DNA of 64,000 bases from Oryzomonas sagensis. GTDB lineage: Bacteria > Desulfobacterota > Desulfuromonadia > Geobacterales > Pseudopelobacteraceae. The notes beneath the pieces were generated by a model. It did not search any database. It was not told the origin of the DNA and was given only the letters and a program-made list of their open reading frames with translations. The position numbers and the translations under genes are program-made. Position 1 is the first letter of the stretch; every line of letters begins with the position of its first letter. Shown in pieces: positions 7,898 to 32,865 of this stretch. Location of the stretch: the NCBI RefSeq assembly GCF_008802355.1, contig NZ_VZRA01000003.1, forward strand, positions 442,361-506,360, in the 5' to 3' direction.

Positions 7898-7933
7898 TGC
7901 GGCCTCACCGATTCCATAAAAAAAGGATGGATC

Positions 7934-8842
7934 ATGTCGTCATCTCGTCTGGCTAATCTTCACCTGCGGGCCCGCGTAATTCAAACAATCCGGGAGTTTT
8001 TCCGTTCACGCGGATTTCTGGAGGTCGAGACCCCGCACCGTATTCCGGCCAACGCGCCCGAAGAGCATATCGAGCCCTATCGGTCCGATGCCTGCCACCT
8101 CCAAACCTCGCCGGAAATCTGCATGAAGCGGCTTTTGTGCCGCGGATACGGGAATATCTTCCAAATCTGTCGTTGTTGGCGAAGCGATGAACGCGGCAGG
8201 AGGCATGTGCCGGAATTCACCATGCTGGAGTGGTACCGGGCCGATAGCGATTATTTCGTTCTCATGAGAGACTGCGAGGAGTTGCTGAAATCCGTGGTTG
8301 AAACGACGAGCGGGGGGACGGCACTGTCGTACCAGGGCCGTAAGATCGAGGTACATAACGGCAGCAGGCGGATAACGGTCCGCGAGGCGTTCGAGCGGTT
8401 CGGCGGCACAACCGTGGAGGCGGCGCTCCACGACGGCACATTCGACGAGATCATGGTTACCGCCATAGAACCGGCCTTGCCGCAGGATGTGCCGGCCATC
8501 CTGATGGATTATCCGGCCGCAGCGGCCTCTCTGGCCCGCCTCAAACCGGGCGACCCGACAGTCGGGGAGCGGTTCGAGCTGTACGCCGGCGGCCTGGAGC
8601 TTGCCAATGGCTTTAGCGAGCTGAACGATCCCCGGGAACAGCGGGCGCGCTTTCTGGAGGCCAACGACAAACGGCTCCGGTCCGGGCTCCCGCCCCTGCC
8701 CCTCCCGGAACCGTTTCTGGCCGATCTGGGGGATATGCCGCCTGCCGCCGGAATTGCCCTGGGCATCGACCGGCTGGTCATGCTCTGCGCCGACGCGGAC
8801 AGAATCGACGATGTTGTCGCCTTTACGCCGGAGGAGTTGTAA
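7934..8842 (+). CDS. epmA: EF-P lysyl-lysine ligase EpmA (GenX/PoxA/YjeA)
   Basis: This 302-residue protein is a class II lysyl-tRNA synthetase core without the tRNA anticodon-binding domain, the hallmark of EpmA. Class II motif 2 is seen as RSDERGRRHVPEFTMLEW (about residues 82-99). Motif 3 shows as GIALGIDRLVML near the C-terminus, and the specificity region as GGLELANGFSELN. In Escherichia coli EpmA activates (R)-beta-lysine and attaches it to Lys34 of EF-P; the matching lysine here is Lys32 of efp at 3.7 kb. AAAAAGGATG precedes the start. Its 3' end overlaps convergent epmB by 20 bases. Confidence 0.93.
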   Translation: MSSSRLANLHLRARVIQTIREFFRSRGFLEVETPHRIPANAPEEHIEPYRSDACHLQTSPEICMKRLLCRGYGNIFQICRCWRSDERGRRHVPEFTMLEWYRADSDYFVLMRDCEELLKSVVETTSGGTALSYQGRKIEVHNGSRRITVREAFERFGGTTVEAALHDGTFDEIMVTAIEPALPQDVPAILMDYPAAAASLARLKPGDPTVGERFELYAGGLELANGFSELNDPREQRARFLEANDKRLRSGLPPLPLPEPFLADLGDMPPAAGIALGIDRLVMLCADADRIDDVVAFTPEEL

Positions 8843-9860
8843 TGTCGCGGTAGGCAACCCGCTCGCCACGGTAGGTGGTCAGAAACACCACGTCGCCGTC
8901 CCGCTCGAACTGATCGGGCAATATGGGAACCTTTCCCTTGCCCCCCGGCAGGTCGATCACGTAGTGGGGAACCCCCAAGCCCGAGATATGGCCGCGCAAC
9001 GCCCGGATGATCTCAAGGCCGCTGGCCAGGGGCGTGCGGAAATGAGCCGTGCCTTTGACCAGGTCCATCTGGTGGAGATAGTAGGGCCGCACCCTGATGC
9101 CCAAAAGCCCCGTCATCAATGCGCGCATGGTCGCTATGTCGTCGTTGACCCCCCGTAGGAGCACGGTCTGATTGCCCATCTGGATGCCGGCATCCGCCAG
9201 CAGGCCGCAGGCAGCCGTCGATGCGGCGGTGATCTCTGCGGGATGGTTGAAATGGGTATTGACGTAGAGCGGATGAAAACGCTTCAGCATGGCGCACAAC
9301 TCCGGGGTCACACGCTCCGGCAGGGTGACCGGCATGCGGGTGCCGATGCGGATGATGCCGACGTGCGCGATGGCGCGCAGCCGGGTGAGGATGTCGTGCA
9401 GGGAGGCATCGTCGAGCATGAGCGGGTCGCCGCCGGTAAGCGTCACATCCCGGATGGCCGGGGTCGCCCCGATGTAGGCCAGTGCCTGCTCCAAACGCTC
9501 AGTGCCGGGAGGTTGATCCCCGCACCCCACATGGCGCTTTCGCATGCAGAAACGGCAGTACACCGGGCAGCGGTTCGATACGAGCAGCACGACCCGGTCG
9601 GGGTAGCGATGGATCAAGCCGGGGACCGGGCTGAGGGACACCTCGGCCAACGGGTCGGGAAGCTGGCCGTCATCCTCGAGTTCCCGCACATCCGGGATGC
9701 ACTGGCGCCAGACGGCATCGCCCGGCTCTCGGATCAGTCCGGCATAGGATGAGGAGACCAGGAACGGATAGCGTGCCGCCACCGCTTTGATGGCAGGCAT
9801 CATGTTTTGATTTATGTTTAATTTATCGACGGTTACGCTTGAGTAGTTGATGTATTTCAT
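8823..9860 (-). CDS. epmB: Lysine 2,3-aminomutase family, EF-P beta-lysylation protein EpmB
   Basis: This 345-residue radical SAM enzyme has the cluster motif CPVYCRFC (CxxxCxxC) and RKRHVG just after it. The KamA-type ending with LPGGKGKVP, where the PLP lysine is expected, is also present. The short length, without the extra C-terminal segment of clostridial lysine 2,3-aminomutase, fits EpmB, which isomerises lysine to (R)-beta-lysine for EpmA. The ATG at 9860 has GGAAAG nine bases upstream; the in-frame start at 9920 would add 20 residues without family similarity. Its position tail-to-tail with epmA supports the EF-P role over lysine catabolism. Confidence 0.9.
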   Translation of the reverse strand: MKYINYSSVTVDKLNINQNMMPAIKAVAARYPFLVSSSYAGLIREPGDAVWRQCIPDVRELEDDGQLPDPLAEVSLSPVPGLIHRYPDRVVLLVSNRCPVYCRFCMRKRHVGCGDQPPGTERLEQALAYIGATPAIRDVTLTGGDPLMLDDASLHDILTRLRAIAHVGIIRIGTRMPVTLPERVTPELCAMLKRFHPLYVNTHFNHPAEITAASTAACGLLADAGIQMGNQTVLLRGVNDDIATMRALMTGLLGIRVRPYYLHQMDLVKGTAHFRTPLASGLEIIRALRGHISGLGVPHYVIDLPGGKGKVPILPDQFERDGDVVFLTTYRGERVAYRDITTPPA

Positions 9861-9960
9861 GAGATCGTGCTTTCCGGTTGAGGTTGAATCGATTCGCGGG
9901 GGACGGCAATCCGTCTGCAAGACCGAATTGTCTTGAAAATAACCATATTATGTGAAATAT

Positions 9961-9985
9961 ACAACAGATTAAAATCATCTGTTGT
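9961..9985. promoter_or_regulatory. A+T-rich inverted repeat between epmB and the ExeA-like gene
   Basis: ACAACAGAT (9961-9969) and ATCTGTTGT (9977-9985) are perfect reverse complements separated by seven bases. It lies 21-45 bases before the ExeA-like start. It could be an operator or a leader hairpin. Confidence 0.4.
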
Positions 9986-10005
9986 GCTGCGCGACGGCGG
10001 TATCC

Positions 10006-11697
10006 ATGTACACCAAATATTTCGGATTCAAAGAAAAACCGTTTACCCTGACGCCCAATCCCCGCTTCATCTTCCTCAGCAAGCATCACAAGGAAGCGTT
10101 CGCCCATCTTCTGTACGGCATCAACAGCCATTACGGCTTTATTGAGCTGATCGGCGAAGTGGGCACCGGCAAGACCACGGTATTACGCACCCTGTTGGGG
10201 CAGCTTCAGGACAAGAACTACCGGACGGCCCTGATCTTCAACCCCAGCCTGACCGGCGTGGAACTGCTGCGCAGCATCAACAACGAGTTCGGCATCGACG
10301 CCGGCAGTCACTACGCCAATGAACTCCTGGCGGTCCTGAACCGTTTTCTGCTGGAGGAAAACACCAACGGCAGAACCGTTGTCCTGGTCATCGACGAGGC
10401 ACAGAACCTCGACCCGGCCACCCTGGAGCAGATCCGGCTGATCTCCAACCTGGAGACCGAGGATGATAAGCTCATCCAGATCATCCTCGCCGGGCAACCG
10501 GAGTTGGAACGCCTGTTGTCCAAACCGGAACTGCGTCAGATCAATCAGCGCATCGCCGTTCGCTACCGGCTCAGCCCGATCAGCATGGATGAAACCCGCG
10601 CCTATATCCGCCATCGCATGGAGGTGGCCGGCGAGAGCGGGGGCGTCTCCTTCAGCCGTTACGCCATCAAATACATCTATCTCTATACCCGCGGCGTCCC
10701 CCGCATGATCAACATCCTCTGCGACCGGGCTCTCCTGATCGCCTACGGTGACGAGCGCCGGGACATCAGCGCCGGCATCATCAGCAGAGCCATCAGGGAG
10801 ATTCTCAATCTGCCGCGGAATCGGTTTGCGCCCCGGCACCTGGCAGCGATGATCGCCGCCGTCATTATCGTGGTGTTGCTGGCGCTTTGGGCTGCGCAGT
10901 GGCAGTCCGGCCGCCTCTTGCACGCGGGACGGAGCCTGCTGGCCCGTTCCCCTGCCCCGGCACCGACGGAGCCGCCCGATGCAACGACACCTGCCAAGGC
11001 AGGCGGTTCGTCCGTCAAGGCGCCACCGCTGTCGGCATCGGCTGCCCGCCGGATCTCCAGCGCGGAGCAGGAACTCCTCTCCTACGATCAGGTCAGCACC
11101 CATCTGCACGCCCTGAATGCCCTCATCGGCCGGTGGCGGGGGCAATCCTACGGCGCGGTCGGTGTCCGGCTGACAACCCCGGATACGTTTTCGCGCCTTG
11201 CCGCCAAGCGGGGACTGCGCCTGACCCCCTTCAAGGGAACGCTTGACGAGGCTATCCGTTTTGGTCTTCCCTTCCTGGCGGTCACCAGGGTATCGGGTGA
11301 ATTGGGGCCCTACTGTCTTGCCGTGACGGCGGTTCGCGGCGATGGCGTCACCGTTTCGCCCGCCCTGTTCGGCAAGGGCACTATCGCGAAGCAGGAGTTG
11401 GCCTCCCTGGTAAACGGGACCTTCTATCTTGTCTGGAAAAATATCGGCCGCGTTCCGGTCACGATTACGCCCGGAGAACGCCGGAATGAAATAGGAACCC
11501 TGCAACGGCTCCTCAAACAGGCTGGGTCGTACCATGGGCCGTTCGACGGCATCTACGGCGATGCAACCGCCGCGGCCGTGCGGGAGTTTCAGCACGCTCA
11601 CGGCATCGCCGTGGACGATCTGGTTGGTGAACTGACCCTGGCTGCGCTTGTAGCGTACGATAAAAACGCCAACATCCCTTCCCTTAAGGGAAATTGA
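10006..11697 (+). CDS. ExeA/GspA-like AAA ATPase with peptidoglycan-binding domain
   Basis: The 563-residue protein begins MYTKYFGF, the typical ExeA N-terminus. It has an AAA ATPase with Walker A GEVGTGKT (residues 50-57) and Walker B VLVIDEAQN (about 127-135). A membrane helix follows near 278-298, then a Pro/Ala-rich linker, a C39-peptidase-like fold region (about 360-470) and a peptidoglycan-binding domain (about 490-555). In Aeromonas, ExeA with ExeB helps insert the type II secretin through the cell wall. The gene directly downstream is GspB-like, which supports this role. No other type II secretion gene is present in the window. Confidence 0.88.
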   Translation: MYTKYFGFKEKPFTLTPNPRFIFLSKHHKEAFAHLLYGINSHYGFIELIGEVGTGKTTVLRTLLGQLQDKNYRTALIFNPSLTGVELLRSINNEFGIDAGSHYANELLAVLNRFLLEENTNGRTVVLVIDEAQNLDPATLEQIRLISNLETEDDKLIQIILAGQPELERLLSKPELRQINQRIAVRYRLSPISMDETRAYIRHRMEVAGESGGVSFSRYAIKYIYLYTRGVPRMINILCDRALLIAYGDERRDISAGIISRAIREILNLPRNRFAPRHLAAMIAAVIIVVLLALWAAQWQSGRLLHAGRSLLARSPAPAPTEPPDATTPAKAGGSSVKAPPLSASAARRISSAEQELLSYDQVSTHLHALNALIGRWRGQSYGAVGVRLTTPDTFSRLAAKRGLRLTPFKGTLDEAIRFGLPFLAVTRVSGELGPYCLAVTAVRGDGVTVSPALFGKGTIAKQELASLVNGTFYLVWKNIGRVPVTITPGERRNEIGTLQRLLKQAGSYHGPFDGIYGDATAAAVREFQHAHGIAVDDLVGELTLAALVAYDKNANIPSLKGN

Positions 11698-11709
11698 TCG
11701 GGTAAACAG

Positions 11710-12378
11710 ATGAGTTCCATTCTCAAAGCGCTGAAAAAGCTGGAAGAAGAAAAATCGGCCCGGACACCGGATGCCCTCAAGATAGATTCGGAGATCCTGC
11801 GTGGCGGAAGCTCGTCCCGGTTCCCCTATCGCAACGTGATCCTGCTGGCGGTTCTGTTCTTTATCTGCGGTTCCCTGTTTACGTACCTGTATGTGAAGCG
11901 CGGGGCCAACCCGGCCGGCACCGCAGCGCCCACGGTCCCGTCGCCGGAGCGCACCATCCCCCCCCGTGCGGCTGTTACGGAAGCCCCGGGGAAGGTCGTA
12001 CCGGCCGACCGGCCGCGCCGCCAGGCACAGGATGCCCCGGCCCCGGTTTCCGTGGCCGCGCCCCATGCCAAGCCTCCCAAGCCTCCCAAACATCCCCGTG
12101 CCGCCCTGCCCGCAACGGCCGGACAAGCGCAGCCGGGAGCCGTGGCACAGCCGGTCGTTGCCGTGCCGTCAGCGCCGTCCAGGCGTATCCCCACCCTCAG
12201 GGTGGACGGCATCGCCTACCATTTCGGCAGCGCCGACAGCCTTGCCGTGGTCAACGGGAACACGGTCTTTGTTGGGGCAACGGTTGAAGGGGCAAAGGTC
12301 GAAGATATCGGGAAGGATCACATTCGGTTCAGCTATGGGGGGGAGAAGTTCGATGTCTCCCTGGGCAAGTCCAATTAA
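11710..12378 (+). CDS. GspB-like general secretion pathway protein
   Basis: This 222-residue bitopic membrane protein lies 12 bases after the ExeA-like gene. It opens with MSSILKALKKLEEEK, the signature N-terminus of GspB/ExeB-type proteins. One membrane helix (about residues 42-62) is followed by a long Pro/Ala-rich periplasmic spacer of about 100 residues and a C-terminal globular region (PTLRVDGIAYH onward) that matches the type II secretion GspB domain. It should partner the ATPase just upstream at the inner membrane and peptidoglycan. Confidence 0.85.
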   Translation: MSSILKALKKLEEEKSARTPDALKIDSEILRGGSSSRFPYRNVILLAVLFFICGSLFTYLYVKRGANPAGTAAPTVPSPERTIPPRAAVTEAPGKVVPADRPRRQAQDAPAPVSVAAPHAKPPKPPKHPRAALPATAGQAQPGAVAQPVVAVPSAPSRRIPTLRVDGIAYHFGSADSLAVVNGNTVFVGATVEGAKVEDIGKDHIRFSYGGEKFDVSLGKSN

Positions 12379-13801: not shown

Positions 13802-15298
13802 TCACGGCATGCTCCCGCGCCGCCGGCCGTAGCGTTCCAGCCGATTGTTCATCTCGCCCGCCAGGCCCCGGTGGATCATATCCCAGGAAAAACGCCACCC
13901 CCAGTTTCCGAATGCCGTACCGGGAAGATTCATGCGGGCCGTACCGGGCAGGCCGAGGATGTCCTGGAACGGTATGACGACCGTATCGGCTACGGACATC
14001 AAGGCCACCCTGATGATATCCGCAACGATATCGCGCCCGTTCGAGCCGACATAGTCCCGTACCAGGCTACGGTGGTGTTCATCCAGGCTGGAATACCATC
14101 CCAGGGTCGTATCGTTATCGTGGGTGCCGGTGTAGACGACACAGTTTTTGACACAATTGTGAGGCAGGTAGGGGTTGGCCGGACCGGAATCAAAAGCGAA
14201 TTGCAGGATCTTCATGCCGGGAAAGCCGAAACGGTCGCGCAATGCCTCGACCTCGGGGGTGATGACACCCAGGTCCTCGGCAATAATCGGCAACTCTCCC
14301 AGTGCCGACCGAACCGCCTCGAACAGGCGTCCTCCCGGCCCGCCCCCCCACACGCCCCGCTCTGCCGTGTGTTCAGTGGCCGGCACCTGCCACGCAGCCT
14401 CAAAACCGCGAAAATGATCGATGCGCACGCCGTCGAACAGCGCAAACGCATGGCGGAAACGTTCGACCCACCAGTCGAATCCCCGGCGTTCCAGGATTTC
14501 CCAGTCATAGAGCGGGTTGCCCCAGAGTTGGCCGGTCTTGCAGAAATAGTCGGGCGGTACGCCGGCCACGACGGTCGGTTTGCCCTGGCCGTCAAGCAGG
14601 AAAAGGTCGCGGTTGCGCCAGACATCTGCCGAATCATAGGCCACAAAGATAGGTATGTCGCCGATGAACGAGACCCCGCGGCTTGCGGCATATGACCGCA
14701 ACGCTTGCCACTGGCGGGAAAACTGCCACTGCAGATATTTCTGGGCTCCGATCTCGGGCCCCAGCTTCAGCGAAGCCTTTTCATAGGTTTCCGCCGTCGG
14801 CAACGCCGCTTCCCGGGGCCATTTCTGCCAGCTTTTCCCCCTGTAATGCTGTTTGAGCGCCATGAAGAGCGCAAAATCGTGCAACCAGGGCGTCGTATCG
14901 CAGAAGTGCCAGAATTCCTCGGTCCGCGAGCTTCTCCCGGCGCCAAGGAAGGTTGCCGCGGCCTGATGGAGCAGGCCGAGCTTCACATCGGAAACGCCGC
15001 CATAGTCCACCCGTCCTTCGGGAAAATGGCTGCCGAGCGCCTCAAGCGGCAGATCGCCCTCCTTGACAAGTTGCTGGAGGTCCAGCAACAGGGGGTTGCC
15101 GGCAAAGGCCGACAGTGATGAATAGGGGGAGTTGCCGCAGGCGGGCGGGGTCAGGGGGAGCACCTGCCAGTAACTCATCCCCATGGTTGACAGCAGGTCC
15201 ACAAACCGTCGCGCATTGTCTCCCAGCGTGCCGATGCCGTCGTGTCCTGGAAGCGACGTTGGATGAAGCAGGACCCCGCAACTCCGTCTCTTCAGCAT
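13802..15298 (-). CDS. malQ: 4-alpha-glucanotransferase (amylomaltase)
   Basis: MalQ is a cytoplasmic GH77 disproportionating enzyme of maltodextrin and glycogen metabolism. The 498-residue length is normal. The nucleophile region DGVRIDHFRGFE, the acid/base region IIAEDLGVITPEV and the third carboxylate in YTGTHDNDTTLGW are intact. The ATG at 15298 is set by a perfect AGGAGG; a further in-frame start at 15355 would add 19 residues with no support. No glycogen or maltose genes lie beside it, so it appears to be a single-gene unit. Confidence 0.95.
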   Translation of the reverse strand: MLKRRSCGVLLHPTSLPGHDGIGTLGDNARRFVDLLSTMGMSYWQVLPLTPPACGNSPYSSLSAFAGNPLLLDLQQLVKEGDLPLEALGSHFPEGRVDYGGVSDVKLGLLHQAAATFLGAGRSSRTEEFWHFCDTTPWLHDFALFMALKQHYRGKSWQKWPREAALPTAETYEKASLKLGPEIGAQKYLQWQFSRQWQALRSYAASRGVSFIGDIPIFVAYDSADVWRNRDLFLLDGQGKPTVVAGVPPDYFCKTGQLWGNPLYDWEILERRGFDWWVERFRHAFALFDGVRIDHFRGFEAAWQVPATEHTAERGVWGGGPGGRLFEAVRSALGELPIIAEDLGVITPEVEALRDRFGFPGMKILQFAFDSGPANPYLPHNCVKNCVVYTGTHDNDTTLGWYSSLDEHHRSLVRDYVGSNGRDIVADIIRVALMSVADTVVIPFQDILGLPGTARMNLPGTAFGNWGWRFSWDMIHRGLAGEMNNRLERYGRRRGSMP

Positions 15299-15464
15299 TG
15301 TGTGCCTCCTGAAGCGTAGTGGTGCAATTAAGCCATATACGACCTTGCTTTGCAAATAAAATCAATATATTGCCAACTATTAAAATACAATTCAATTGTC
15401 GGCTTATTTCGGGTATAGTTCTATAAATGAGTACACATTTCACTAACCATCTTCTACGGTCCTC

Positions 15465-17639
15465 ATGAATAAGCACCCCCTGGGCATACCGGCACGCGCT
15501 ATCGATACCAAGCTTCTGGCGTCCCTGATCATCGAGCTCAATATCTCGCTCCGCTATTTCAAGTCCTATCCCGCTGGGCACCCTGTCATCAACGCCTCCT
15601 TGAACAAGGTGGTTGCTCTGTATGCACAATTAATGACGGCGCATGACGAAATCGTCGTTGCCGCCGCAAAAAATGCCCTGGTGGTGGAAAACGCCCCCCT
15701 CGACAAATCGAATCTTGTCTTTCGCGATTTTGCCGGCGCGCTTTTCGAACACGGCATCGGCGCCTTGATCTTCCACAAGGGCCTGAACGTCGAAGAACTC
15801 AGGAGCTTTAACCTGATTCTGGGGCTCAAGCGGGAGGAACTCAGCGCTCGGGGGGGAATCGGAAAGGTCTGGGAGCAGTCGCACATCACCGCCCTTGACA
15901 TGCGCGCCATCCGCTATGACCTGTTCAGCGCTACCGAGGATGATGCTCTGGCCGGCTCCTTGAAGATGGAGCCATCCGGCGCAGGGCTTTGGGAACAGTT
16001 TGCCCGCGGATTGTTGGGAGGCTCGCTCGGCTTCGACGCGGCAGACGATGCGGCCGGGATTGACCCGAAACTGCTGGCCCAGGCCTTGAACCGCCGGTAC
16101 CGCGAATCGGGCGCCGGCGAGGATGACGAGTACATCGACGTCTTCGCCGACCTGATCGAACCGGAAGAGGGGGACCGGGAAGATAACACCAACCTGGGCA
16201 TTCCCGGCAGCCGGATTGCAGCCTTTGTGGCAGACCTGGACCCCGGCCTCCGCCGTACATTCCTATCCAAATCCTTCGATATCGGCGCATGGGGCACCCC
16301 CTCGGCACTCGAAGACATCCTCGGGCACATGCCAGACCATGTGATTGCAGGAATTCTGGACGATATCGGCAGCAACAGGGTCTCGGTTTCGCCGGCAATC
16401 ATGGCGCTCCTGCAACGGTTGTCCCTGCACTCGGCGAGCGGGGCTCACGATTCGCTGCCCTTTTCCCCAAATGCGCAGGAAAAATTACACATCGTCTTCA
16501 GCGAACATGCTGCGGAGGAACATAAATTCCAGAACGACGGGGTGACGGCTCTGCCACGTTCCTCTTCCGGCGTGGCCTTCCCATCCCCCCGCCAGGAACT
16601 CTGCCTCTTGCGGGAAACCATGCAGGCCGGTTGGCTGGAGAACTGCGTCGGCCAGATCATCCTGCGCCTCGTGACTGCCGCGGACGACCCGGCGGAAACG
16701 GAGAGCCTCGCCCAGAACCTGGGGGATATGTGCGGTTATCTGCTCCAGACCGGCGATTACCACCAACTGCTCAGGATCATTGAACAGGCAAACTCCCCAA
16801 CCCTTCCCTCGGCATTCAGGGAACACCTCGCGGAACGATTTTGCCGCCGCGACTTCCTGGAGGAGGTCCTCAATGGCCTTACCACCTGGGGCAAAAGCCG
16901 CTTCGAGGACATCCGCCTATTGGTCGAAACGATCGGAACCCCGTTCATCGGACCGCTTCTGGATAGTCTGGCCGAGGAAGAAAACATGTCGTTGCGGCGT
17001 TTCATGATGGATTGCCTCCTGGAATTCGGCCCTGCCGCCAAGGAGTCGATCCTGGTGCGCCTCGACGACCAGCGCTGGTATTATCTGCGCAATTTGCTCA
17101 TCATGCTGCGTTCCCTGGACGATCCCGAAATCGTTCCCCACATCAGGCCCTTGGTTATGAACAGGAATCCCAAGGTCCGGCAGGATGCCCTGCGCACCCT
17201 GCTCTCCTATAACGATCCGGTTGCGGAACGCCAGCTACTGCGGGACCTGGAGAGCAACGACAAGGAGGTCCGGCTTGCGGCCATCGGCATGGCCGAGAAG
17301 AGCCGCTCCCCGGATGTCTGCAGGAAACTTTTGGCAATTGTCGCCAAAAGCGGTCTTTCGCAACTGGATATCGAGCTGAAAAGTACCGCCATTGCCTCCC
17401 TGAAGGAGATGGGGCGGGAGGAGGCCCTCCCCGAATTACTCAAGTTTCTGGGCTCCGTGAACCTGATCCGGGCCAAGGCGCTCACCCGCCTCAAGCTCGA
17501 TATCGTCCGTTCCCTTGAAGCGTATCCCCCTCCCAGCGTCCTGCCGATCCTGGAAAATATCGCCAGGGGGAGCGACGAATTGGCCCGGCAGGCCGAAGAG
17601 TCCCTACGGACCGTCAGGATGAAATCCGATGGACAGTGA
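15465..17639 (+). CDS. HEAT-repeat protein with N-terminal module shared with the next gene
   Basis: This 724-residue protein has no export signal or membrane helix. The N-terminal 150 residues contain a pattern also found in the downstream HD-GYP protein: Y..GHPV, a strand pair around ALVVENAPL, then FAGALFEHGIGALIFHKG. A middle region with acidic stretches follows. The last 250 residues are HEAT/PBS-lyase-like helical repeats, for example MNRNPKVRQDALRTLLSY and ESNDKEVRLAAIGMAEKS. Such repeats bind proteins and are typical scaffolds. It overlaps the HD-GYP gene by 11 bases, so the two are almost certainly made together. The function is unknown; a scaffold for a second-messenger enzyme is my inference. 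Confidence 0.8.
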   Translation: MNKHPLGIPARAIDTKLLASLIIELNISLRYFKSYPAGHPVINASLNKVVALYAQLMTAHDEIVVAAAKNALVVENAPLDKSNLVFRDFAGALFEHGIGALIFHKGLNVEELRSFNLILGLKREELSARGGIGKVWEQSHITALDMRAIRYDLFSATEDDALAGSLKMEPSGAGLWEQFARGLLGGSLGFDAADDAAGIDPKLLAQALNRRYRESGAGEDDEYIDVFADLIEPEEGDREDNTNLGIPGSRIAAFVADLDPGLRRTFLSKSFDIGAWGTPSALEDILGHMPDHVIAGILDDIGSNRVSVSPAIMALLQRLSLHSASGAHDSLPFSPNAQEKLHIVFSEHAAEEHKFQNDGVTALPRSSSGVAFPSPRQELCLLRETMQAGWLENCVGQIILRLVTAADDPAETESLAQNLGDMCGYLLQTGDYHQLLRIIEQANSPTLPSAFREHLAERFCRRDFLEEVLNGLTTWGKSRFEDIRLLVETIGTPFIGPLLDSLAEEENMSLRRFMMDCLLEFGPAAKESILVRLDDQRWYYLRNLLIMLRSLDDPEIVPHIRPLVMNRNPKVRQDALRTLLSYNDPVAERQLLRDLESNDKEVRLAAIGMAEKSRSPDVCRKLLAIVAKSGLSQLDIELKSTAIASLKEMGREEALPELLKFLGSVNLIRAKALTRLKLDIVRSLEAYPPPSVLPILENIARGSDELARQAEESLRTVRMKSDGQ

Positions 17640-18789
17640 AAGCCTCATCATACAGGAATCCATCCGCTCGCTACTCTCGGCAACCGCCAATGCCGCGCTC
17701 TACACCATGGGGCATCCTCAGGTGGCCCGTCTGGCCGAATCGGCCTTTAAAGGCATCAGCGCGGCCCTTGGCATCTCCCGGCAGATATCACTCACGGTTA
17801 TCGAGGATGAGCTGATTATCAACGGCGAACCGCCCTCCTTCAGCCTCTCTATGAACCGATTCGCCGAGGTGCTCAAATCCAGGGGGATCGGTCATGTAAA
17901 ATTCATCGAGGGGCTTGACCGCGAGGAGATCACCGCCCTCATCGCTGCTTTAGCCAGTCAGGAAATGGGGCGGGCTGCTTTAACCTCCAGCGAACATATC
18001 CGTTTCGGCCAAGTGGCACTCAGCGAGGGGAGCGGCGGCGGATATGCCGTTTCGCCCGACGGAGACGGCGCTCAGGGCCCAATTCCCCTGAAGGACATGC
18101 CGGCTGAAGAGTTGGCCCGTTTCACAGAGATCTACGGGGCGCTGAAAAAGAAGCAGAAGATGAAGGTGACCGGTATCGTCGAGATCGTGTCCGGTTTTAT
18201 CACCGCCTTCCGGCAGGAGGGCGAATCCCGTCTGGTCATGGCAACCATGCGCAGCGACGAGGAGTATACCTTCACCCATTCCGCCAATGTCTGCATTCTC
18301 AATCTGGCCCAGGCCATCTCCCTGGGCATCGAGGGACAGATGCTGCACGATATCGGCATTGCCGCCATGCTGCACGATATCGGCAAACTCCTCATTCCCG
18401 AGGAGATTCTCATCAAGAGCGGCAAACTGACCCCCCAGGAGTTCAAACTGTTGGAGGAACACCCGGTGCAGGGCGCCCGGCATCTCCTGGAAGTTCCCGG
18501 CGTTCCCCGCCTGGCGGTGGTGACCGCCTACGAGCATCATATGAAATACGATTTATCCGGCTATCCCGCCGCGCCAGAAGGGGGACGCCTCAATCTATGC
18601 AGCCAGATCACCATGATCTCCGATTTCTTCGATGCCATGCGGACCCGGCGCCCGTACCGCGCCCCGGTTGACCTGCGGACCATCGTCGGCCAGATCGTGG
18701 ACAGATCCGGGAGCGATTTTCACCCCCTCCTGGCCCGAAATTTTCTGAACATACTCAAGCGCATGGTTGACGCGCGTCGTTCCTCGTAA
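17629..18789 (+). CDS. HD-GYP domain protein with degenerate GYP segment
   Basis: This 386-residue protein carries a C-terminal HD-GYP domain (about residues 190-375) of the cyclic di-GMP phosphodiesterase family. The HD metal motif is intact in LHDIGKLLIPEEIL. The GYP segment reads HHMKYDLSGYP, so the usual Glu after HH and the Gly before x-GYP are replaced, and the downstream G-L-x-G-E segment is also unlike the consensus. Activity is therefore uncertain. The N-terminal 130 residues resemble those of the upstream HEAT protein (YTMGHPQV, ELIINGEPP, FAEVLKSRGIGHVKFIEGL). There is no receiver domain, so input probably comes through that module and its partner. Confidence 0.88.
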   Translation: MDSESLIIQESIRSLLSATANAALYTMGHPQVARLAESAFKGISAALGISRQISLTVIEDELIINGEPPSFSLSMNRFAEVLKSRGIGHVKFIEGLDREEITALIAALASQEMGRAALTSSEHIRFGQVALSEGSGGGYAVSPDGDGAQGPIPLKDMPAEELARFTEIYGALKKKQKMKVTGIVEIVSGFITAFRQEGESRLVMATMRSDEEYTFTHSANVCILNLAQAISLGIEGQMLHDIGIAAMLHDIGKLLIPEEILIKSGKLTPQEFKLLEEHPVQGARHLLEVPGVPRLAVVTAYEHHMKYDLSGYPAAPEGGRLNLCSQITMISDFFDAMRTRRPYRAPVDLRTIVGQIVDRSGSDFHPLLARNFLNILKRMVDARRSS

Positions 18790-18882
18790 TCTCCCCCTCC
18801 CCTTCTTGACATTCCCCGCTTCCATGCTTACCTAAACTATGTAGAGAGCAGCACATTCCATTTTTATCCGAAGGAACGAATC

Positions 18883-21510
18883 ATGGACTTCAACCGTTTG
18901 ACGCAAAAATCCCAGGAAGCCTTTGCAGAGGCCCAGAACAAGGCGGTAACCAGCGGCCATGTGGAGGTGGACGGCGAACACCTGCTCTGGGCATTATTGG
19001 AACAACCGGATGGTCTGGTGCCCCGCCTGCTGACCCGGATGGATGTCCGCCCCGAAACGATCAAAAAGGAGGTTGAGGCGGAACTGGACCGCCGCCCGCA
19101 CGTCTCGGGCCCCGGAGCGGAACCGGGCAAAATCTACGTCTCCCAGCGGCTGTCGCGCATCCTGGTTGCCGGCGAGAACGAGGCCAAGCGGCTCAAGGAC
19201 GAGTATGTCTCGGTAGAGCACCTCTTCATGGCGCTTCTGGGGGAAGGGGACAAATTCCCGTCCGGCCGGATACTCAAGCAGGCCGGCATCGATCGGGAAA
19301 AATTTCTCAAAACCCTGACCGACGTGCGCGGCAACCAGCGGGTGACCTCCGCCAACCCGGAGGCCAGTTACGAGGCCCTGGAAAAGTATGGCCGCGATCT
19401 GGTCAAGATGGCCAGGAGCGACAAGCTCGATCCGGTCATCGGCCGGGATGAGGACATCCGTCGGGTAATCCGTATCCTGTCGCGCAAGACCAAGAACAAC
19501 CCGGTGCTGATCGGCGAGCCGGGAGTCGGCAAGACCGCCATCGTGGAGGGATTGGCCCAGCGTATCGTGCGGGGCGACGTGCCCGAGGGGCTCAGGGACA
19601 AGACGGTCTTTGCCCTGGATATGGGGTCGCTCGTGGCCGGGGCCAAATACCGCGGCGAATTCGAGGAACGCCTCAAGGCGGTCCTGAACGAGGTCAAGGA
19701 GGCCGAGGGAGGCATCATCCTCTTTATCGACGAGTTGCACACCATCGTGGGGGCCGGCAAGGCCGAAGGCGCCATGGACGCCGGCAACATGCTGAAACCG
19801 ATGCTGGCCAGGGGGGAGTTGCACTGCATCGGCGCTACGACCCTTGACGAGTACCGTCAGCATATCGAGAAGGATGCCGCCCTGGAGCGCCGGTTCCAGC
19901 CGGTCCTGGTGGAGCAGCCCTCGGTGGAGGACACGGTCTCCATCCTGCGGGGGCTCAGGGAACGATTCGAGGTGCACCACGGGGTAAAGATCCAGGACAA
20001 CGCCCTGGTGGCGGCCGCTACCCTCTCCAACCGCTACATCACCGAACGGTTCCTGCCGGACAAGGCTATCGATCTCGTGGACGAGGCCTGCGCCATGCTC
20101 CGTACCGAGATCGACTCGCTTCCCTCCGAACTGGATACCATATCCCGAAGGGTCATGCAGTTGGAAATCGAGGAGCAGGCCCTGAAACAGGAGAAGGACC
20201 CGGCCAGCCGGGAGCGGCTGGAGGCGCTTCGCAAGGAGCTGGCCTCTGACCGGGAGAAGGCCTCTGGCATGCGGGCCCGCTACGACACGGAAAAGTTAGC
20301 TATCCAGCGCATTCAGGGGCTGCGGGAGCAGATCGAGAAGACCCGCCGCGACATTGAGCAGGCCGAGCGTACCTACAATCTGGAACAGGCCTCCAAGCTC
20401 AAATATTCCGAGCTGCCGGGGTTGGAAACCGCTCTGAAGAACGAAGAGGCAGCCCTGAGCGAAAAACAGGGCGGGGAGAAACTGCTGAGGGAGGAGGTCA
20501 CCGAAGACGAAATTGCCGAGATCGTGGCCCACTGGACCGGTATCCCGGTCACGAGACTGGTGGAGGGGGAACGGGAAAAGCTGCTGCGCCTGGAGGACAT
20601 CCTGCATCAGCGGGTAGTGGGACAGGACGAAGCGGTACGCCTGGTGACGGATGCCGTGCTGCGCGCCCGTTCGGGCATCAAGGACCCGCGGCGTCCCATC
20701 GGTTCGTTCATCTTCCTGGGGCCCACGGGGGTCGGCAAGACCGAGCTTGCCCGCACCCTGGCCGCCGCCCTGTTCGACTCGGAAGAGAACATGGTGCGTA
20801 TCGACATGTCGGAATACATGGAGAAATTTGCCGTGTCGCGTCTCATCGGCGCGCCTCCCGGCTATGTGGGGTACGAGGAGGGGGGGCAGTTGAGCGAGGC
20901 GGTCCGGCGCAAGCCTTACAGCGTTCTCCTGTTCGACGAGATCGAGAAGGCCCACCCCGACGTCTTCAATATCCTGCTGCAGATTCTGGACGATGGCCGG
21001 GTCACCGACAGCCACGGACGCATGGTCAGCTTCAAGAATACGGTTATCATCATGACCTCGAACATCGGTGCCCCCCATCTGCTGGAGGGTATCACCGCCG
21101 ACGGCGAGATTCGGGAGGATGCCCGCAAGGCGGTCATGAACGAACTGCGGGCCAGCTTCCGCCCCGAGTTCCTGAACCGGGTTGACGACATCGTACTCTT
21201 CAAGCCGTTACATCTTGATGAGGTGGTGCGCATCGCCGACCTCCTGGCGGAGCAATTGAAGGAACGACTGAAGGATCGCCACATAACCCTTGAAATTACC
21301 GACGAGGCCAAACGCTTTATCGCCCGGGCCGGCTATGACCCGGTCTACGGCGCCCGGCCGCTCAAACGCTACCTGCAGCGGGAGCTGGAGACGCGGGTGG
21401 CGCGCGCCATCATTGCCGGTAATGTGGCGGAGGGAAGCAAACTGCGGGTGCAGGTCAAGGATGGCGCCCTGGATGTCAGCGGAGAAGCTGAAATGCATAC
21501 CACACCATAA
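18883..21510 (+). CDS. clpB: Disaggregase chaperone ClpB
   Basis: ClpB is a hexameric AAA+ disaggregase working with DnaK. The 875-residue protein shows the usual order: Clp N-domain (residues 1-145), first AAA with GEPGVGKT, a charged coiled-coil middle domain (about 400-530) and second AAA with GPTGVGKT. The C-terminus covers the D2-small domain ([15 protein letters not shown]). AAGGA precedes the ATG. A perfect TTGACA lies at 18806, but no good -10 stands at normal spacing, and I see no CIRCE element, so its heat-shock control is not readable here. Confidence 0.97.
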
Positions 21511-31826: not shown

Positions 31827-32865
31827 ACACATTCTGATTGTCGATGACGAGGAAATGATCAGAGAACTGCTCGCCTCGGCGCTTCTCCAGGAAGGCTATG
31901 TCTGCCATCTGGCATCCAATGTGGATGAGGCGTTCGCCATTCTGAGCGAACATCCGATTGTTCTGGTTATCTCCGACATCATGATGCCGGGCAGAAGCGG
32001 CGTCGATCTGCTGAGGGACATCAAAAAGGTCGATGCCGACATTGCGGTCCTGATGGTCACGGGGCTCTCCGATATGAACACCGCCCTGGAGTGCATCCAC
32101 CTCGGCGCGGACGACTATATATCCAAGCCGTTCAGCATCAACCGCGTGTTCCTGACGGTCAAAAACCTCATAGAAAAACGCAATCTTGCCATAGAAAGGA
32201 AAAACTACCAGATCAGCCTTGAGTTCAAGGTCTTGGAACAGACCGAGCAAATCCGCCGCACCATGAATGAGTTGCACAAGGCTTACGACCATACCCTGAC
32301 CGCCCTGGTCAGGGCGCTGGACGCCCGGGAAAAGGAGGTCGGCTCCCATTCGGAGCGCGTGATGAACTACACCTCACTCATGGCCGCCAAGCTGGGAATT
32401 CATGGAAACGATCTCGAGCAGTTGGCCAAGGGGGCTCTGCTGCACGACATCGGCAAGATCGGCATATCGGACAATATCCTGCTCAAACCGGGTCCTCTGG
32501 ATGACGGCGAATGGGTAGAAATGCGCCGCCATCCAGAGGTGGGATATGCCATTTTATCCGAGATCGGTTTTCTGAAAGGTCCGGCAGAGGTTATCCTCAC
32601 CCATCACGAGCGTTTTGACGGCACCGGGTATCCCAAGGGGCTCAAGGGTGAGCAGATTCCTATCGGTTCGCGGATTTTTGCCGTGGTGGACACGCTGGAT
32701 GCCATGACTTCAGACCGTCCCTACCGCAAGGCGCTCCCGTTCGATGCCGTGAGCAGCGAGGTGCGCACCTACCGCGGCAGCCAGTTCGACCCCGACATTG
32801 CCGACCTCTTCCTCTCCTTGACCCGCAGCCAGTGGGAAGAATGCGCCGGCAAAAAGTTCATCTGA
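31819..32865 (+). CDS. Response regulator with HD-GYP output (RpfG-like)
   Basis: This 348-residue protein has an N-terminal receiver domain with acidic DDEE at 9-12, phosphoacceptor Asp53 in VISDIMMP and Lys in DYISKP. A short coiled segment leads to an HD-GYP domain. That domain keeps the canonical sequence: LLHDIGKIGI, then HHERFDGTGYPKGLKGEQIP and DTLDAMTSDRPYR. It should be an active cyclic dinucleotide phosphodiesterase, unlike the degenerate copy at 17.6 kb. GGAGA precedes ATG 31819; a longer in-frame start at 31750 is rejected because it adds 23 non-receiver residues. Confidence 0.93.
   Translation: MNEHILIVDDEEMIRELLASALLQEGYVCHLASNVDEAFAILSEHPIVLVISDIMMPGRSGVDLLRDIKKVDADIAVLMVTGLSDMNTALECIHLGADDYISKPFSINRVFLTVKNLIEKRNLAIERKNYQISLEFKVLEQTEQIRRTMNELHKAYDHTLTALVRALDAREKEVGSHSERVMNYTSLMAAKLGIHGNDLEQLAKGALLHDIGKIGISDNILLKPGPLDDGEWVEMRRHPEVGYAILSEIGFLKGPAEVILTHHERFDGTGYPKGLKGEQIPIGSRIFAVVDTLDAMTSDRPYRKALPFDAVSSEVRTYRGSQFDPDIADLFLSLTRSQWEECAGKKFI

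Follow-up and report, generated by a model that had tools for sequence, protein, structure and literature searches.

Two overlapping genes of Oryzomonas sagensis encode a HEAT-repeat protein and an HD-GYP protein whose N-termini carry homologous modules of about 130 residues, and the two genes adjoin each other in nearly all the related loci surveyed. Both lie in the window analysed here, a stretch of 64,000 nucleotides (contig NZ_VZRA01000003.1, positions 442,361 to 506,360 of the forward strand) from a genome of 3.6 Mb. Coordinates given without a locus name are positions of this window, and names beginning with L designate loci of other genomes. The pair is composed of the following features:

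15465-17639, plus strand: HEAT-repeat partner gene (P0001, 724 residues), from the open reading frame; Pfam HEAT_2 at E 5.9e-14, best stretch residues 530-607
15507-15914, plus strand: N-terminal module of the HEAT protein, about residues 15-150, from the hhalign alignment with the HD-GYP N-terminus and the AlphaFold2 model
16800-17636, plus strand: HEAT-repeat solenoid, about residues 446-724, from Pfam HEAT_2 and a profile against orthologues with E down to about 1e-130
17629-17639, plus strand: 11-base overlap of the HEAT gene and the HD-GYP gene, from the open reading frame coordinates
17629-18789, plus strand: HD-GYP partner gene (P0002, 386 residues), from the open reading frame; Pfam HD_5 at E 1.1e-20
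17635-18018, plus strand: N-terminal module of the HD-GYP protein, about residues 3-130, from hhalign and the AlphaFold2 model of the whole protein
18088-18147, plus strand: helix 154-173, preceded by a low-confidence linker and followed by the HD-GYP domain, from the AlphaFold2 model
18169-18783, plus strand: HD-GYP domain with H217, H249, D250, H278, H303, H304, D332, K253, G311-Y312-P313 and R341, from the alignment to PmGH (4mcw) and the fold match

The Pfam matches are well above their cut-offs: HEAT_2 scores 52.6 bits (cut-off 27.7) over three stretches in the C-terminal part of the HEAT protein and HD_5 scores 74.5 bits (cut-off 27.2) in the HD-GYP protein.

Homology of the two N-terminal modules

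An initial annotation, made from the sequence alone, had described an 11-base gene overlap and a common order of elements at the two N-termini. The two open reading frames do share positions 17629-17639, and the motifs are present as it gave them: YPAGHPV, VVENAPL and FAGALFEHGIGALIFHKGL in the HEAT protein, YTMGHPQV, IINGEPP and FAEVLKSRGIGHVKFIEGL in the HD-GYP protein, with EE next in both. The profile alignment of the N-termini that it had proposed was run and returned significant similarity. Using hhalign, the N-terminal families of the HEAT and HD-GYP proteins (14 and 16 rows) aligned with a probability of 97.9% and an E-value of 4.8e-13 over 110 columns at 21% identity; with larger sets of 47 and 43 rows the E-value was 6.5e-13. 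The score of 82 dropped to 12-13 when either profile was reversed, and the top score among 30 column shuffles of the module profiles was 19.4. The profile built from HEAT proteins only matched the N-terminus of 79 of the 84 HD-GYP proteins of the family, and the profile built from HD-GYP proteins only matched 57 of the 76 HEAT proteins. Among the 3615 open reading frames searched at E 1e-3, the only other matches were two frame-broken HEAT N-terminal halves (L150 and L155). Profile homology thus supports the proposal that a scaffold-type protein and a second-messenger enzyme have a module in common.

In the AlphaFold2 models of both modules, helices and strands follow one another in the same order. 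For residues 1-185 of the HEAT protein, modelled with a predicted local distance difference test (pLDDT) of 88.3 and a predicted template modelling score (pTM) of 0.78, the module consists of helices 15-34 and 40-57, strands 62-68 and 71-74, helix 84-95, strand 98-104, helix 109-120 and strand 144-148, two extra short helices preceding the last strand. In the model of the whole HD-GYP protein (pLDDT 89.8, pTM 0.66), it consists of helices 3-24 and 30-50, strands 52-58 and 61-64, helix 73-84, strand 89-93, helix 98-109 and strand 124-127. The YPxxHP signature lies in the turn joining the two long helices; across a mixed set of 40 members, its Tyr is the sole invariant residue, and its His is kept in at least 90% of them.

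The module looks uncatalogued in domain libraries. No Pfam or NCBIfam family matched the N-terminus of either window protein at E up to 1, and when 40 module members were scanned singly at E up to 0.1, no family was found in more than 2 of them, the best E-value being 0.0019 in a single member. Against sequences of the PDB the module gave scattered weak matches, the lowest E-value (0.0011, over 34 positions) being to a designed protein. Foldseek detected no significant fold match in the PDB, the best being PelD (E 0.039, template modelling score 0.16), and with VIA-align 2 none of 999 chains reached a Z of 5, the best value being 4.5. GAF chains are frequent near the top of the Foldseek list, under the same best values; this resemblance can serve as a lead only, and the missing fold match does not make the fold new.

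Conservation of the two genes as neighbours

A public genome collection was scanned for the HD-GYP family, which gave 176 relatives, and the analysis continued with the 80 best loci. In 78 of these 80, the gene immediately upstream of the HD-GYP gene is the HEAT gene, and in the remaining two (L139 and L154) the HD-GYP gene is at a contig edge. The neighbour survey suggested together with the profile alignment therefore finds the pair adjoining. The genes overlap at 80 of 82 junctions (by 4 bases at 60 of them, 11 bases at 11, 1 base at 5, 8 bases at 2 and 14 bases at 2), the other 2 having a 2-base gap, when each HD-GYP gene is counted once with the start codon nearest to the HEAT stop, a choice that favours overlap. 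The whole pair occurs twice in tandem in L153, L155, L160 and L161.

When neighbouring genes were clustered over 81 loci, the window included, the HD-GYP family was found in 80 and the HEAT family in 78, and the next family in 20. No third conserved partner gene was detected in the stretches read: the downstream ClpB gene is common to only 10 of the 81 loci and the upstream glucanotransferase gene to only 16. Of 76 genomes surveyed in the family, 59 matched the HEAT query (counting HEAT proteins of the second-pair kind described below) and 45 the HD-GYP N-terminus, the HEAT protein of the closest relative in this survey being 90% identical. Among the best 80 loci, L157 and L158 belong to Nitrospirota.

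A second pair in the genome and the tree of modules

Searching the whole genome with the HEAT-module profile at E up to 10 returned exactly four places, namely both modules of the window pair (pair 1) and both modules of a second pair located on another contig (pair 2). Pair 2 comprises a HEAT protein of 529 residues and an HD-GYP protein of 461 residues, detected with module E-values of 6e-10 and 2e-8, and its genes are separated by a 2-base gap. The HD-type module profile of pair 1, searched in the same way, recovered its own gene only. With hhalign, the HEAT and HD-GYP modules of pair 2 aligned with each other at 95.2% (E 2.6e-8). Across the pairs, the probability was 99.0% for the two HEAT modules, 95.1% for the two HD-GYP modules, 97.5% for HEAT module 1 with HD-GYP module 2, and only 7.6% for HD-GYP module 1 with HEAT module 2. 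The pair is duplicated as a unit. In relatives, 20 loci of pair 2 were fetched for their HEAT match, and the HD-GYP partner was found in all 20. The genome has nine HD-GYP-like places, and the module occurs only on the two paired ones.

The idea that the N-termini are alike merely through short helical segments of common composition can draw on the low pairwise identity of the two window modules (20%), on the pair-1 HD-type profile matching no other module of the genome, and on the poor alignment of HD-GYP module 1 with HEAT module 2. It fails to explain the background scores of the reversed and shuffled profiles, the cross-matches obtained without an unrelated match among the 3615 open reading frames, and the HEAT-type profile picking out exactly the four modules of the genome; we give it practically no credit.

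A tree was built from 111 modules and 131 columns, in which many forks are open and the bootstrap has not settled. All 30 HD-type modules of the pair-1 kind cluster together (support 97/91), 21 of the 24 HEAT modules of the pair-1 type fall in a separate group (88/95), and 11 of the 20 HEAT modules of the pair-2 type in a third (96/83), with HD modules of the pair-2 type spread over several groups. Since HEAT-type and HD-type modules group apart, the two partners appear to carry long-separated versions of the module. Such a separation would be expected if the module of each partner were specialised for its own role.

The module in other protein architectures

A mixed module profile matched 119 of 297 surveyed genomes of the phylum at an E-value of at most 1e-4. 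The best 150 matches were retained: 94 of them formed 47 same-strand pairs spaced by 1.5-2.3 kb, in which the second partner was mostly judged by spacing and open reading frame length, not by domain, and the other 56 led to 55 loci that were read (L227, L239 and L243 were also read and had been counted already). Among the matches listed, 84 of 102 places are HEAT and HD-GYP pairs (47 + 37). The 55 loci read comprise 37 pairs, 3 large two-module proteins, 11 places where a module protein occurs in a stretch lacking an HD-GYP gene, 1 lone HD-GYP gene (L269) and 3 loci cut by contig ends (L246, L271 and L272). Within the 37 pairs, the module was undetected at E 0.01 in 6 HD-GYP partners and in 4 HEAT partners, the latter being split or cut genes. 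L237 and L238 are HEAT and HD-GYP pairs with widely overlapping open frames.

Places outside pairs include solo HEAT proteins and the two-module proteins. The latter, of 1431-1456 residues, begin with GGDEF and an AAA_16/STAND-type ATPase, followed by two tandem modules and HEAT repeats, according to Pfam scans of three of them (one per locus). Their genes are located as follows:

L224:3053-7420 and 7899-12212, two such genes standing consecutively
L225:3542-7834
L226:2934-7256 (minus strand)

In the tree, the modules of the GGDEF proteins cluster with one another (100/98). We had considered these proteins as a fusion of a HEAT-type and an HD-type module, a strong Rosetta-stone reading, and rejected it on account of this clustering; they look like the product of a module duplication inside one protein. 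Elsewhere, the module is N-terminal in a PAS-HisKA-HATPase histidine kinase (L231:2287-4656, minus strand) and is combined with a GGDEF-like C-terminus in L229:3862-6126 and L280:3860-6142, which scores above the Pfam cut-off in L280 and below it in L229. Each of the last two genes directly follows an open reading frame that, by eye, resembles a Ser/Thr protein kinase with its glycine loop.

These architectures bear on the function of the module, which could be a sensor or ligand-binding domain. Each protein would then sense the same signal alone, within a shared pathway and without necessary contact, the enzyme altering cyclic diguanosine monophosphate (c-di-GMP) while the HEAT protein binds another target. 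The N-terminal location in the PAS-histidine kinase (L231) and in the GGDEF-like proteins (L229 and L280) is typical of input domains, and HEAT proteins without an HD-GYP neighbour also carry the module. However, the Tyr and His of the YPxxHP turn, the most constant residues of the module, lie between two long helices in the models and look structural, and a plain sensor leaves two co-travelling copies on overlapping genes unexplained. We regard this alternative as rather unlikely, and we infer that the pairing favours an assembly role for the module at least as well as an input role.

Catalytic residues and fold of the HD-GYP domain

Catalytic residues were surveyed in 58 rows on an alignment to PmGH of Persephonella marina (PDB 4mcw), an active enzyme, with residue roles taken from the available text of PMC4159591. 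The equivalents of PmGH H189, H221, D222, K225, H250, H276, H277, GYP, D305, D308 and R314 are identical in 58 of 58 rows. In the window protein, the seven metal ligands of the Y/F subfamily are H217, H249, D250, H278, H303, H304 and D332, and the GYP motif is G311 Y312 P313. The position of PmGH D183 is Asp in 55 rows and Glu in 3, one being the window protein. The position of E185 is Tyr in all 58 rows, in place of the E/D of the trinuclear E/D-T-G subfamily; this Tyr therefore places the family in the Y/F subfamily, likely with a binuclear centre, which is what the text of PMC4159591 expects of that subfamily. The positions of K317 and I294 vary. All 20 complete rows of pair 2 have the same conserved residue set.

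The initial annotation had called the GYP segment degenerate. This description does not hold for the metal ligands, the GYP motif and the guanine-binding Arg, which are intact throughout. What is replaced is the Glu of HHE (Met in 32 rows, Leu in 20, Ile in 5, Ala in 1) and mostly the Gly of DG, retained in only 9 rows, so that the full consensus HHExxDGxGYP is absent. The available text of PMC4159591 names this consensus and does not list the HHE Glu among the metal ligands. Because the metal ligands, the catalytic Lys, the GYP motif and the guanine-binding Arg are invariant, the HD-GYP protein is predicted to be an active binuclear cyclic-dinucleotide phosphodiesterase.

The domain has the HD-GYP fold of PmGH (Z 18.8, 3.1 A, 179 residues, 29% identity) and keeps seven of its eight metal ligands, the eighth, E185, being replaced by Tyr. 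The two proteins differ at their N-termini, GAF in PmGH and the new module here, and a HEAT partner is unmentioned for PmGH in the available text of PMC4159591. The best fold match is Bd1817 of Bdellovibrio (PDB 3tm8, 3tmb, 3tmc and 3tmd; Z 21.0, 3.2 A, 213 residues, 15% identity); according to the same text, it lacks the GYP Tyr and c-di-GMP phosphodiesterase activity, whereas GYP is invariant in the window family. The HD-GYP domain of DvhD from the sulfate-reducing Desulfovibrio vulgaris is also similar (Z 18.0). Unlike the window protein, DvhD is, in the available text of PMC13090378, a PAS membrane receptor that acts together with the DvhG protease and showed no hydrolysis of c-di-GMP.

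DvhD provides a precedent for an HD-GYP domain acting as a receptor (PMC13090378, available text), and the domain studied here might likewise bind a nucleotide and relay its state to the HEAT protein. The replacement of the HHE Glu in 58 of 58 rows and of the DG Gly in 49 would fit such a loss of catalysis, as would the window protein's Glu at the catalytic D183 position, the variable K317 and I294 positions, and a top fold match described as inactive (PMC4159591, available text). We nevertheless consider a pure receptor improbable: the seven metal ligands, the catalytic Lys, GYP and the guanine-binding Arg do not vary in any row, the D183 position is acidic in all of them (Asp in 55, Glu in 3), and alanine substitution of the PmGH metal ligands left essentially no activity, with the exception of E185 and D305, where it fell markedly (PMC4159591, available text).

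A candidate two-protein complex

On balance, we lean towards the view that the two proteins are translated in a coupled manner and form a complex, the HEAT protein using contact between the modules to control or position the phosphodiesterase. The gene overlap would couple translation, so that both proteins would be made side by side and could bind each other via their related N-terminal modules. The HEAT solenoid would be the regulatory or placing partner, bringing the enzyme to a target or keeping it inactive or active depending on a solenoid ligand, and the HD-GYP domain would hydrolyse c-di-GMP or a related cyclic dinucleotide at a binuclear metal centre. The translational coupling, the module contact, the direction of control, the activity, its substrate and the input signal are all proposals of this model. 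A two-protein complex is suggested because the genes overlap, one kind of domain occurs on both proteins, the pair is duplicated as a unit and no third conserved gene accompanies it. The paired device put forward by the initial annotation is likewise backed by the neighbour conservation, the overlaps and the unit duplication.

Binding and control of the phosphodiesterase by the HEAT protein via the module are proposed by analogy with RcbA-RcbB of Vibrio vulnificus, the closest precedent. In the available text of PMC12282931, a shared N-terminal tetratricopeptide repeat (TPR) domain joins the partner and a diguanylate cyclase, and the partner relieves inhibition. Both systems are two-gene operons with the same kind of N-terminal domain on both proteins, a partner region of unknown function and a cyclic-dinucleotide enzyme. 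In RcbAB, the shared domain mediates binding and the enzyme is under the partner's control, which by analogy may also be the case for the HEAT and HD-GYP pair. In contrast, the shared domain of RcbAB is TPR, its GGDEF enzyme makes c-di-GMP, HEAT repeats are unmentioned for its partner in that text, and the bacteria are different; no TPR family is among the Pfam matches of either window protein at E up to 1.

The initial annotation could match the pair to no described system, and we found no description of a HEAT and HD-GYP pair in the open-licence PubMed Central literature, judged mainly by titles and abstract openings. No open-licence paper there jointly contained 'HEAT repeat', 'HD-GYP' and 'Geobacter', or 'HEAT repeat' and 'Geobacter sulfurreducens'. 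Both 'HEAT repeat' and 'HD-GYP' occurred in three papers listed there, two on Xanthomonas genomes and one an overview of jumbo phages. The device is a variant of the known control of c-di-GMP by a partner protein, the pair itself being new as far as we found.

That a single chain can combine two modules with HEAT repeats and a GGDEF domain counts in favour of the complex. Other observations weigh against it. Distance matrices over 75 pairs, a small set for this purpose, show no module-module preference, the partial correlation being 0.36 between the two modules and 0.40 between the HEAT module and the catalytic domain (0.363 and 0.395 to three decimals), compared with 0.391 between the HD module and the HEAT C-terminus and 0.116 between the HD module and its own catalytic domain. 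Of the 55 places fetched for an unlisted partner, 11 encode a protein with the module but show no HD-GYP gene within the sequence read; therefore the module does not always need an adjoining HD-GYP partner. Finally, as the modules of the GGDEF proteins group together, these proteins are no fusion of the pair.

The controller of a given soluble HD-GYP enzyme is often unknown. Here a likely regulator is encoded beside the enzyme and carries the same domain, which allows a direct test of whether a dedicated HEAT partner controls a phosphodiesterase. The domain libraries also lack an entry for the module; giving it a name would allow a family of signalling proteins to be annotated, both in relatives of Geobacter and in other bacteria. 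More tentatively, it may found an uncatalogued class of signalling domains acting in twos, forming complexes of a HEAT protein and a phosphodiesterase across the phylum and beyond, with a mirror in the GGDEF and STAND-type ATPase chain bearing two copies and HEAT repeats. If so, the making and the breaking of second messengers would be steered by the same type of assembly, HEAT repeats plus a double module.

Other observations

No Rfam family matched the window at gathering score, and a pattern search found no sigma-70-like site in 15200-18900, where shuffles expect 1.5. An HD-GYP-like place in the window at about 32317-32826 (G000:C3:474677-475186, open reading frame of 376 residues) showed no copy of the module. 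In three metagenome assemblies (L136, L150 and L176) the HEAT gene is split into two open reading frames, through frame errors or decay. In L250:2665-4344 (minus strand), an in-frame TAG stands just after the module of the pair's HEAT gene, so that the module is in one open frame and the HEAT repeats in the next, followed by the HD-GYP gene.

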